The notes under the pieces: generated by a model | What the model saw: only the letters and a program-made list of their open reading frames with translations | Told to the model about the DNA's origin: nothing | The model's database searches: none | Translations under genes and position numbers: made by a program | Assembly (NCBI GenBank): GCA_944390195.1 | Contig: CALXOZ010000010.1 | Coordinates: 1 to 64,000, forward strand | Origin: an uncultured Alphaproteobacteria bacterium | GTDB taxonomy: Bacteria; Pseudomonadota; Alphaproteobacteria; CAAGCB01; CAG-977 | Direction of reading: 5' to 3' | Length of the DNA: 64,000 nucleotides | In this document: in pieces, positions 94 to 37,725 of the stretch | How positions within the stretch are numbered: position 1 is the first letter of the stretch | How the letters are laid out: the number at the start of each line of letters is the position of its first letter

Positions 94-1062
94 TTAGTAA
101 TCATAAGCATTAAGATCTGCGTTATTACATCTCGTCCATCCTTTACAACCGCTTCCATTGCGGCAAACAGATCTCAATCCAATGTGATCTGAATAATATC
201 CGGGAATACCATTGCTAGGCCAAACCAATCCGGCATTGTCATCGCAACATCTCGGACGGCACATGCTATCTTTGCCGATTCTATCATCTAAACGGAATTG
301 GCTTTCGCATGAAGTACATTTAACCTCTGTCGTGTTCTCGGAAACAAATTCACATGAAGAACAGCCTGCAGGACAATGTAAGCAAAGATTGCCCTTTTTA
401 ATAAAAGAGGAATTACAGGTGAAATTTTCTGTTCCGTTACATTTTGCATTTTTAGGACATGCGACACATTTTCCGTCTTTCAACAACATATCACTTTTGC
501 ATTTCGTACACTTTGTACTGTTACATTCCGCACAGTTGGAAAAAACCTGTGAACATGTCTTACAGGTACCATCCTTATTAATATAGCCCTTGTTACAAGT
601 GGCTTGCGTACATGATCCGGTTTGAGTACATTGCGTACACGAGCCGTTGGTAACTTTTATCGAAGAACAAGCTAGACATGCTCCACTTTTGTTAAAATAC
701 CCCTTGTTACAAGTGGCTTGCGTACAAGATCCTGTCGCAGAACAATTTGTGCAAATCCCGTTGCTGACGGAAATGCTGGAACAGCTTTTGCATAAACGAC
801 CGCTCAGGAAATAGTAGGTGTTGCATATGGAACATACGCCAGTGCTGTAATTACAGGTTTTACAATTGGAATCATGACATTCAAAACGGTATGATGATGA
901 ACCGTTTGCAGGTGAACTTTCTCCGAAAGAAAAAGGAGCTGAATGCCCTAATTTTCTGGCTTTTGCAATGACAAAAGCGTCATTCATATTAAAAGTGCTT
1001 TCCGCATGGCTTGCGGGGCATGTTATGGAAAGGAAAAAAAGTAAATAAAATAGAACTTTCAT
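94..1062 (-). CDS. Secreted cysteine-rich repeat protein
   Basis: The product is about 322 residues when started at the ATG at 1062, which has AAGGAG nine bases upstream; a longer reading from 1089 lacks a ribosome site. It begins with a clear signal peptide (MKVLFYLLFFLSITCPASHA) and is otherwise built of C-x2-C units spaced 8-15 residues apart, resembling furin-like or growth-factor-receptor cysteine-rich repeats. Two internal repeats share TCNKGY plus a following short block. The N-terminus after the signal (NDAFVIAKARKLG) matches the start of the paralogues at 28383-29546 and 36811-37455 (NDGFVIAKAVKLG). It is probably exported and disulfide-stabilised, or surface exposed; its function is unknown. 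The upstream promoter resembles that of the paralogues but has a shorter G tract. Confidence 0.85.
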   Translation of the reverse strand: MKVLFYLLFFLSITCPASHAESTFNMNDAFVIAKARKLGHSAPFSFGESSPANGSSSYRFECHDSNCKTCNYSTGVCSICNTYYFLSGRLCKSCSSISVSNGICTNCSATGSCTQATCNKGYFNKSGACLACSSIKVTNGSCTQCTQTGSCTQATCNKGYINKDGTCKTCSQVFSNCAECNSTKCTKCKSDMLLKDGKCVACPKNAKCNGTENFTCNSSFIKKGNLCLHCPAGCSSCEFVSENTTEVKCTSCESQFRLDDRIGKDSMCRPRCCDDNAGLVWPSNGIPGYYSDHIGLRSVCRNGSGCKGWTRCNNADLNAYDY

Positions 1063-1135: not shown

Positions 1136-1165
1136 TATATGGATAGGGGGGTATATTTGTAATAA
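1136..1165 (-). promoter_or_regulatory. Putative promoter with a G6/C6 tract in the spacer
   Basis: On the coding strand a TTATTA hexamer (1160-1165) is followed after 18 bases by CATATA (1136-1141), and six consecutive C residues lie in the spacer. The element aligns base for base with the promoters at 29622-29652 and 37531-37561, where the C tract is twelve long. It lies about 75 bases upstream of the start codon. The assignment as -35 and -10 is inferred from the alignment; no transcript start is known. Confidence 0.5.
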
Positions 1166-27464: not shown

Positions 27465-28330
27465 TTAATTCCATTTATAGGTGCAAGGTTTTTGTTTACA
27501 TGGAAAATCAGTTCTATTCCCGTACAATTCGTGTCTAAATGAAGTATAATCATATTCAGGAAGATGACTTGAACATCTTACTTGATCATTTACATTCTGT
27601 TGTTGCATATTGTGGTATCACTGAATCTATCATAAGTGCACTTGTTGCATCCGTTACCACAAGGTCTGCACATTCCAGTACTACCTACACTAATAAATGC
27701 TGCACTATCTATACATGATGTACATTGCATAACACCGGAACCTATGCAGGTTTTACAGTTAACATAACAAGCCAAGCAACTGTTTCCATTTTGATAGAAA
27801 CCGGAATTACATGAAAAGCTTCTATTTTCGCAAGTGGCATTGGCAGGGCATGGTGTGCAACTGGAGGCTCCGTTTACGTTGGAATAAGTTCCCGCCGGAC
27901 AAACGGACAACTGGCAGCTCCGCTCGATGAATAAGATCCCGGTCGACATGGTATACATGCGACAGCATTGCTTTGAGCTGGTTTGGGGTTAAATGTCCCT
28001 TGTGGACAAGGAACGCATTTTCCGCTGCTAGTGTAATATCCTGCCGGACAAACAGAACAAGAGTTGGCGTTTTTTATAATATCCCGCTTTGCAAGCTAAA
28101 GAGACGCCGTTACAGGTGGCATTTGCCGGACAGCTCATGCAGACATTGTTACTTGAATTGTTATTTAAGAACATACCGTTTTTGCAACTAAGGCAGGTTT
28201 CGGTTGATGTATCGCAATTTTCACAATTTTGGTCACAGTTTTTAATCAGTTCGTTTTTTCCTGTGTTGATGTTTGTCAAGCCTTTTAAGCTGTTTTCCAA
28301 AAAGGTTTTAAGCTGATAAAAAAATATATA
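27465..28330 (-). pseudogene. Silent, frameshifted Cys-rich protein copy
   Basis: The region encodes a Cys-rich repeat protein in three shifting frames. It lacks the signal peptide, start and promoter of its neighbour at 28383-29546 and begins directly after that gene's terminator with a sequence encoding NTGKNELIKNCDQNCENC. Its first 200 bases are almost identical to the neighbour's. One frameshift is a T6 versus T5 run at 28070-28075, a second a missing base near 27907, a third near 27600; after it the frame reads to YKWN and a stop at 27465. It may be a decaying duplicate or a promoterless donor cassette. Confidence 0.85.
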
Positions 28331-28382: not shown

Positions 28383-29546
28383 TTAATATGAGATACATCC
28401 TGTAGCTTGAGCATTTACATGTGTTCCCGCTGGGCAGGAAGAACATCCGACAGATCCGGGGGTGGAATAATATCCGTTCCGACAAGGGGTACATCCCATT
28501 ATTAAGGTTCCGACTCTTACCGGTGTTGCCGCGATAGCTCCTGGTGAATTAAAGTAAGTTCCTGCTGGACAAGGTTTGCAGCTGGATGAGCCTATTTGAT
28601 CGGCATAATATCCTGCTGGACACAAAGTACAATTTTTATCACCGGATTTGGCATAATATCCTTTTATACAAGCGGAGCATTTCCCGTTACTAAGGATATA
28701 TCCTCCTTTACAAGTTTTACATCCTCCCGTTGATGAACATGAAGTACAGTTTTCTGGACAAGGGAGACAACTTGTTCCTTGAAGATAAAAACCTGATTTA
28801 CAAACATGGCATGTTGTAGATGATGAGCATACATTACAATTATCGGGACATTTTAAACAACTGTTTCCGTCTTTGACATAGCCTGTTTTACATGAAACTT
28901 TGCCATTGCTGCAGGTAGCATTGGCAGGGCAGGTTGTACAACTGGCGGATCCGGCTGAGGAAGTGGATCCTGTAGGACATTTTGAACAAGCTGAGGCTCC
29001 TACACCAGAATAATATTCCGCTGGACAAGAAGAACAGGAAGTTGCCCCTGCATTGGAGTAATATCCCGCCGGACATTTCGAACAGGCTGAGGCTCCCGTA
29101 TTTGAATAAGATCCCGCTGGACAAGAAGAACAGGAAGTTGCTCCCGCGTTGGAATAAGACCCCGCCGGACAAGCGGAACAAGAGTTGGCGTTTTTATAAT
29201 ATCCCGCTTTGCAAGCTAAAGAGACGCCGTTACAGGTGGCATTTGCCGGACAGCTCATGCAGACATTGTTACTTGAATTGTTATTTAAGAACATACCGTT
29301 TTTACAACTAAGGCAGGTTCCGGTTGATGTATCGCAATTTTTACAATTTTGGTCACAGTTTTTAATCAGTTCGTTTTTTCCTGTATTGACGTTTGTCCAA
29401 TCAGTGTTTTGGTTGACGGCTTTTCTTCCGAGTTTAACGGCTTTAGCGATGACGAAGCCGTCGTTGGAAAGAAGCGTATTTTCCGCCCGAGTTGGAGTGG
29501 CGAGTGCGCAATAAAAGAAGAGAAGCGAACAGAACAGTTTAAACAT
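28383..29546 (-). CDS. Secreted cysteine-rich repeat protein, long form
   Basis: The 387-residue product has a signal peptide (MFKLFCSLLFFYCALATPTRA), the family-specific NDGFVIAKAVKLGRKAV and then a long series of Cys-rich units. The most regular unit is C-x2-CPAG-x-YSN-x-GA-x-SC, repeated about five times from residue 120 on, reminiscent of the ephrin-receptor-like GCC2/GCC3 repeats of eukaryotes and of trypanosomatid or ciliate surface proteins. AGGAGG precedes the ATG. The first 55 codons and the promoter are nearly identical to the paralogue at 36811-37455, while the rest differs. It is likely exported and surface exposed; function unknown. Confidence 0.88.
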   Translation of the reverse strand: MFKLFCSLLFFYCALATPTRAENTLLSNDGFVIAKAVKLGRKAVNQNTDWTNVNTGKNELIKNCDQNCKNCDTSTGTCLSCKNGMFLNNNSSNNVCMSCPANATCNGVSLACKAGYYKNANSCSACPAGSYSNAGATSCSSCPAGSYSNTGASACSKCPAGYYSNAGATSCSSCPAEYYSGVGASACSKCPTGSTSSAGSASCTTCPANATCSNGKVSCKTGYVKDGNSCLKCPDNCNVCSSSTTCHVCKSGFYLQGTSCLPCPENCTSCSSTGGCKTCKGGYILSNGKCSACIKGYYAKSGDKNCTLCPAGYYADQIGSSSCKPCPAGTYFNSPGAIAATPVRVGTLIMGCTPCRNGYYSTPGSVGCSSCPAGTHVNAQATGCISY

Positions 29547-29815
29547 AAGATCCTCCTGATGAAATGTTACAGATATATTTCATTTTCTATTTTTGAGAGA
29601 AAGGAGTGGATGTTCCATCAAAATATGGGGGGGGGGGGCATATTTATAACAAAACTGTAACAATTCAAAATATGAGTGAGGCGGGAAAGCCAGCACTTGA
29701 AAAAGTGTTACGTTTAAACGGGTTGTATTTTTTTTATGAAAAGAATGGATATGATCTGAAAAGCAGAGATTTAAAGAAAAAGAGTTTTTTTAAAAAAAAG
29801 TATATACTCGTGAAA
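29368..29815 (-). repeat. Duplicated 5' block, copy 1
   Basis: About 448 bases covering the first 60 codons of the Cys-rich gene, its promoter and 180 bases further upstream are nearly identical to 37277-37725; the only length difference I see is in an A-run (8 versus 9). The two copies are direct repeats 7.9 kb apart. Identity stops abruptly at both ends. Confidence 0.92.
29622..29652 (-). promoter_or_regulatory. Putative phase-variable promoter with C12 spacer tract
   Basis: On the coding strand TTGTTA (29647-29652) and CATATT (29622-29627) are 19 bases apart, and the spacer contains a run of C (the plus-strand G tract is 29627-29638, 12 bases). Gain or loss of one or two bases would bring the spacing to the favourable 17-18. 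It lies about 80 bases before the start codon. Confidence 0.55.
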
Positions 29816-36810: not shown

Positions 36811-37455
36811 TTATTGACACATTAATTCTCCAAATTGGTAACGGCAGGATATACAGTTATCGGGACATCTTACACATCCGGTTGCTGCCGCTCCAAGTCC
36901 GCGGATAAAATATGGATTGCATTTAAAATTGGTTCCATCGCATGTCGCGTTTTCCGGACAGGTTGTGCATCTGCCATATGAAAGATATTTACCGATGACA
37001 CACTTTGTGCACTGTGAAGCGTTACATTCAGTGCAACCGGCATATATTTGCGCGCATGTTTTACAAGAATTATCCTTTTTTATATATCCTTGCTCACAGG
37101 TTACATCCTGACAAGAACCATCGGAAGAACATTGAATGCAACTTCCGTTGTTGATTTTAATATTTGAACAACTTTGGCATAATTTATTGTTTAAATAATA
37201 TCCGGAGTTGCAAACCATGCATATACCGGTACTGTTATCGCATTTAGAACATTTGGGGTCGTTACAATCTTTAAAAAGTTCGTTTTTTCCTGTATTGACG
37301 TTTGTCCAATCAGTGTTTTGGTTGACGGCTTTTCTTCCGAGTTTAACGGCTTTAGCGATGACGAAGCCGTCGTTGGAAAGAAGCGTATTTTCCGCCCGAG
37401 TTGGAGTGGCGAGTGCGCAATAAAAGAAGAGAAGCGAACAGAACAGTTTAAACAT
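36811..37455 (-). CDS. Secreted cysteine-rich repeat protein, short form
   Basis: The 214-residue product has the same signal peptide and first 55-60 residues as the gene at 28383-29546 (MFKLFCSLLFFYCALATPTRA, NDGFVIAKAVKLG, TDWTNVNTGKNEL) and then diverges. The remainder has the C-x2-C units of the gene at 94-1062, for example QDVTCEQGYIKKDNSCKTCAQ against the TCNKGYINKDGTCKTCS of that gene. It is therefore a mosaic: the 5' end of one paralogue and the body type of another. AGGAGG precedes the ATG. It is presumably exported; function unknown. Confidence 0.88.
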   Translation of the reverse strand: MFKLFCSLLFFYCALATPTRAENTLLSNDGFVIAKAVKLGRKAVNQNTDWTNVNTGKNELFKDCNDPKCSKCDNSTGICMVCNSGYYLNNKLCQSCSNIKINNGSCIQCSSDGSCQDVTCEQGYIKKDNSCKTCAQIYAGCTECNASQCTKCVIGKYLSYGRCTTCPENATCDGTNFKCNPYFIRGLGAAATGCVRCPDNCISCRYQFGELMCQ

Positions 37456-37725
37456 AAGATCCTCCTGATGAAATGTTACAGATATATTTCATTTTCTATT
37501 TTTGAGAGAAAGGAGTGGATGTTCCATCAAAATATGGGGGGGGGGGGCATATTTATAACAAAACTGTAACAATTCAAAATATGAGTGAGGCGGGAAAGCC
37601 AGCACTTGAAAAAGTGTTACGTTTAAACGGGTTGTATTTTTTTTATGAAAAGAATGGATATGATCTGAAAAGCAGAGATTTAAAGAAAAAGAGTTTTTTT
37701 AAAAAAAAAGTATATACTCGTGAAA
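37277..37725 (-). repeat. Duplicated 5' block, copy 2
   Basis: Nearly identical to 29368-29815: the first 60 codons of the Cys-rich gene, its promoter with the G12 tract, and the sequence upstream. An A-run is one base longer here. Same orientation as the other copy. Confidence 0.92.
37531..37561 (-). promoter_or_regulatory. Putative phase-variable promoter with C12 spacer tract
   Basis: Same element as at 29622-29652: TTGTTA at 37556-37561 and CATATT at 37531-37536 on the coding strand, 19 bases apart, with a 12-base homopolymer (plus-strand G at 37536-37547). Confidence 0.55.

Follow-up and report, generated by a model that had tools for sequence, protein, structure and literature searches.

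Locus organization

The window (the whole 64,000-nt stretch of DNA analyzed here, from an uncultured member of the Alphaproteobacteria) carries two intact copies and one eroded copy of a promoter cassette containing a poly-C tract, and each copy lies upstream of a gene for a cysteine-rich protein. The relevant features are as follows:

94–1062, minus strand: third secreted Cys-rich family member (~12.4% Cys), behind the eroded cassette
1146–1151, minus strand: eroded third cassette, C6 then TATCC (11 nt in total), with its box at 1153–1174
27590–28290, minus strand: frame-shifted, promoterless fragment of the Cys-rich family
28383–29546, minus strand: gene for a 387-aa, Cys-rich product (12.4% Cys) whose N-terminus is signal-peptide-like
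29368–29799: first copy of a 432-bp block holding promoter and gene 5′ end
29589–29594, minus strand: putative −10-like element AAAAAT, at a 17-bp spacing to the −35-like one
29612–29617, minus strand: putative −35-like element TGGAAC, +10 to +15 after the tract
29627–29638, minus strand: C12 tract (G12 on the plus strand), the putative slippage site
29640–29663, minus strand: upstream box TTGTTACAGTTTTGTTATAAATAT, a putative activator site conserved across 38 sites in four species
36811–37455, minus strand: gene for a Cys-rich (13.1%) protein of 214 aa, its N-terminal part identical to that of the 28383–29546 product and its body different
37277–37708: second copy of the 432-bp block
37536–37547, minus strand: second C12 tract, in a cassette of the same type
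37549–37572, minus strand: second copy of the upstream box

From base composition, 0.0008 G/C runs of at least 12 would be expected in the window, against the two present, which are equal in length. As the earlier note described, the first tract lies, on the minus strand, between TTGTTA (29652–29647) and CATATT (29627–29622), 19 bases apart, the C of the latter being the final base of the tract. The note also took the tract to have been kept at two loci; here it was mistaken, since positions 29368–29799 and 37277–37708 are 100% identical across 432 bp, a block that covers the promoter together with the first ~57 codons. Because of this identity the two tracts are not independent evidence, and the sequence marks them as the outcome of one recent duplication or conversion event, which rules out two independent loci within the window. 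Independent retention is seen in diverged copies, both elsewhere in the same genome and in three congeneric genomes.

Among window ORFs of at least 200 aa, just three exceed 4% Cys, and all three lie behind a cassette. The 387-aa product matches the Pfam Ephrin_rec_like, TNFR_ELAPOR1, and Giardia VSP families, and the 214-aa product, whose N-terminus is also signal-peptide-like, shows a weak VSP match; among solved structures, related chains come from a mastigoneme protein, from ELAPOR1, and from the calcium-sensing receptor. Modeled from its single sequence, at low confidence (pLDDT 67), the 387-aa protein shows short beta hairpins along its length. Within the promoterless fragment at 27590–28290, 207 nt are 98% identical to positions 29191–29397, and this fragment is possibly a silent donor for gene conversion.

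Distribution of the cassette and its targets

The cassette is recognizable by a 24-bp box, TTGTTACAnTTTTGTTAnAAATAT, with a C-run after it. This combination is present at 38 sites in four of the seven species of the genus, and no sites of this kind were found beyond those four species in two collections. The box contains two GTTACA/GTTATA repeats, 11 bp apart; this arrangement may resemble OmpR-type tandem sites, and the putative activator is perhaps a response regulator of the OmpR type. Searches of the congeneric genomes with GTKACABTTTTRTKAHRAAWAT (one mismatch at most) yielded 35 matches, in four of seven genomes, and none in a reversed control; a run of at least five C's follows 34 of the 35. 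An exact scan of ~85,000 species recovered box plus tract only from three Alphaproteobacteria MAGs, one of them from roe deer rumen. Cassettes number about 6 to 15 per genome, and there are a few further, diverged box-plus-tract sites (C4:120127, C31:12017, L244, and L258). The box was also considered as a general regulator site and rejected as such, having been seen outside cassettes once, near a contig end. Comparison with Rfam gave no match near threshold to a known RNA element. Elsewhere in the window's own genome, a broken cassette (L226, C4:120288), with a C6 run and the start of the core promoter lost, has another cassette, with a C18 run, downstream of it; the upstream flank of that C18 copy is degraded, perhaps through assembly errors.

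As would be expected of simple-sequence-repeat contingency loci, cassettes are associated with secreted products: 24 of the 26 readable downstream genes encode Cys-rich proteins with a signal-peptide-like N-terminus, the exceptions being a Pro-rich product (G006:C19) and one on G001:C40. At the latter site (L208, G001:C40:112887), a C13 cassette precedes a 199-aa protein that has neither signal peptide nor Cys richness.

Variation in tract length

In intact cassettes the tract consists of 12 to 16 C's, always on the coding strand. The 27 complete cassettes comprise runs of 12 (five cassettes), 13 (six), 14 (six), 15 (four), and 16 (five), plus one interrupted run of 9 whose total length is 12; all of these homopolymer lengths were assembled from short reads and are to that extent uncertain. 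Tract length differs even between near-identical paralogues: in G006, copies carry 12, 13, 14, or 16 C's, their cores being identical (35/35 positions) and their 122 flanking bases differing at 10 to 24 places. The two window copies, which do not differ in length, count against slippage. Where runs are interrupted (G006:C19, G005:C58, G005:C83, and position 1146 of the window), the total spacing is still 11 to 16. For 16 of the 38 cassettes a contig end is no more than 250 nt away, versus ~0.8 expected; this excess fits unstable tracts but is weak evidence for them, as repeats and homopolymers break assemblies too.

Position of the tract relative to the core promoter

In the cassette alignment, information content is concentrated in three conserved blocks, at −24 to −1, +1 to +13, and +33 to +42 relative to the tract. 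When the sequence downstream of the tract is scored with general sigma-70 matrices (E. coli-like approximations, which may not represent the organism's own consensus), the top −35-like position is +10 and the top −10-like position is +33, a spacing of exactly 17 bp. Together they score 4.34, versus 0.08 for the next position (column-shuffle P = 0.012), and the same two positions also rank highest when scored separately. This P value is modest, recent spread of the cassette can mimic conservation, and the −10-like element is weak (AAAAAT in the window), which counts against a core promoter at this position. Two other placements were set aside: no conserved pair at 16 to 18 bp exists that would put both core elements upstream of the tract, and a sigma-32-like −10 element, CCCCATNT, is formed by the end of the run, with no matching −35 element seen.

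Readings in which the promoter spans the tract call for longer spacers. With 12 to 16 C's, the best spanning −35/−10 pair needs 21 to 25 bp and the TTGTTA pair 19 to 23 bp, and no tract length in the 27 complete cassettes gives 17 bp to a good −10 element. Because a spanning promoter needs 19 to 25 bp and a conserved 17-bp pair lies downstream, the sequence makes it more likely that the tract sits between the upstream box and the core promoter than within the −35/−10 spacer, and the earlier note, which had placed it inside that spacer, was probably wrong on this point.

Alternative explanations

We regard it as unlikely, on balance, that the tract itself forms the spacer of a promoter whose −35 element is TTGTTA, 8 nt upstream of the tract, and whose −10 element is CATATT or TATTTT, just downstream of it, with slippage tuning spacer length as in Neisseria porA. 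Of the −35-like hexamers ahead of the tract, TTGTTA is indeed the best placed, and a sister genus (G008) has equivalents with the same 8-nt distance, arranged as TTGACA-8-G9-TATCAT (17 bp) and TTGACA-8-G12-TAGGAT (20 bp). In that genus, TTGACAATACCATA precedes a poly-G run before two Cys-rich genes (L280, with G12, and L278, with a longer, ambiguous run) and before a glycosyltransferase-like gene (L279, G008:C26:14189), whose promoter, with G9 giving the 17-bp spacer to TATCAT, is porA-like. By analogy, these tracts, placed between −35 and −10 and 8 nt past a TTG hexamer, would count against a tract upstream of the core promoter and keep the spacer reading alive. Against it, the spanning distance is 19 to 25 bp at every intact cassette, and the 8 or 9 C's that would give ~17 bp occur in none; the −10-like hexamer that follows the tract has good scores in G000 and G001 and poor ones in G005 and G006; and the conserved pair at +10 and +33 is left unexplained.

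The cassette could also be a sequence-sharing module for gene conversion, in which the poly-C tract is a passive hitchhiker or a recombination aid with no effect on expression. The identical 432-bp block with promoterless partial copies nearby, together with G006 genes that share their 5′ ends and differ in their bodies, fits such a module, which we nevertheless find distinctly improbable: the tract and its flanks are kept across species in diverged copies in which the sequence between the conserved blocks has changed, spacing is maintained where the run is interrupted, and in sister genera, genes of this family have their tracts elsewhere. Specifically, members of the family in G007 and G008 have C10 to C11 inside the reading frame, just past the signal peptide, and one of these looks OFF (L262) and three look ON (L266, L267, and L274). 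Tracts at three positions on related genes support selection for switching. The in-frame tracts also lend something to a translational role, whereby the tract would frame-shift a leader or an N-terminally extended ORF. This is highly improbable for the cassette, in that the start codon of the 387-aa protein is at +81 from the tract end with an in-frame stop between, in-frame stops likewise separate tract and start codon in 16 of the 27 cassettes checked, and the ATG preceding the run, from which a leader peptide might begin, is ATA in G001 and G005. That the tract results from erroneous poly-G calls in sequencing or assembly is scarcely credible; some runs elsewhere do sit at contig ends, surrounded by garbage sequence (C4:39, C35:8505, and G006:C10), but the two tracts in the window lie inside the contig and have conserved sequence to either side, and the same cassette is present in MAGs of two other projects.

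Relation to known systems

By its layout, the cassette finds its nearest working parallel in the poly(C) tracts of the Bordetella pertussis fim2 and fim3 promoters, in which some 10 to 18 C's precede a surface-protein gene and members of the family switch separately, as we infer for the present family. There, the spacing of the response regulator BvgA relative to RNA polymerase depends on tract length (PMC1891110, PMC10172299), and the loss of one C from the poly(C) of fim3 abolishes expression (PMC10172299). The run of 12 to 16 coding-strand C's in intact cassettes falls within the fim range, and the position directly upstream of the run is taken by the conserved box with its 11-bp direct repeats, a putative activator site. 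The likeness drawn here is one of layout, and there are differences: the fim C-run lies in the −35/−10 region, whereas the −35-like element follows the run here, and the targets are Cys-rich secreted proteins rather than fimbrial subunits. Homopolymer-controlled transcription of surface proteins is shared with Neisseria meningitidis porA and opc, as discussed in PMC7864442 and PMC2791445, although porA needs ~17 bp between −35 and −10, a spacing that is not found across the tract in these cassettes. In Neisseria nadA, a repeat upstream of the core promoter shifts the spacing of a distal regulator site (PMC2791445), as proposed here, but that repeat is a tetranucleotide (TAAA), the regulator is the repressor NadR, and a single locus is involved. 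The poly-G cassettes of sister genus g3 (L279 and L280) belong to the same bacterial family, and in L280 the target is again a Cys-rich secreted protein; they differ in having coding-strand poly-G between a consensus TTGACA and the −10 element, and L279 drives a glycosyltransferase. A limited literature search returned no report of the present cassette. As a separate observation, a C10 run (L032:8258-8267; C2:44257 in the window's own genome) lies ~250 nt upstream of a CcrM-type-like DNA methyltransferase gene.

Proposed mechanism

These sequences are best read as probable phase variation of a secreted protein family through a slipping poly-C tract. The earlier note had proposed phase variation of a surface protein: comparison gives good support to homopolymer switching, through the conserved cassette, the differences in tract length, and the secreted, Cys-rich targets, whereas "surface" goes further than the signal peptides and Cys-rich repeats that are seen. 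As to how such a switch might work, we lean toward slippage tuning the geometry between an activator and the polymerase. In 5′ to 3′ order, each cassette consists of the 24-bp box, a run of ~12 to 16 C's, a putative core promoter (+10/+33), and a short leader ahead of the gene. Slippage during replication in living cells would add or remove C's, changing both the distance and the helical phase between the bound putative activator and RNA polymerase; the transcription of each gene would be raised or lowered at random and independently, and with about 6 to 15 cassettes per genome each cell might make its own mix of Cys-rich proteins. Counting against the activator is the near confinement of the box to tract sites, with no independent use elsewhere.

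Significance

Most of what is known of homopolymer phase variation comes from pathogens. The present sequences point to a probable multilocus version in uncultured, probably commensal, Alphaproteobacteria of the ruminant gut, and the system is larger than a single tract suggests, some 40 cassettes being spread over four related bacteria. Its targets form one family of Cys-rich secreted proteins resembling eukaryotic Cys-rich surface domains, and related genes of that family, with tracts at three places (ahead of the putative core promoter, in the −35/−10 spacer, and in the reading frame), lend themselves to a natural comparison. The claim of switching is testable with existing metagenome reads. 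More tentatively, and short of an even chance in our estimation, a mobile, gene-converting cassette, composed of a putative activator site and a slippery C-run, may have spread before 6 to 15 Cys-rich, VSP/ephrin-receptor-like secreted proteins per genome, giving combinatorial surface variation to uncultured rumen Alphaproteobacteria whose family would repeatedly have evolved tracts at different positions of one gene family.
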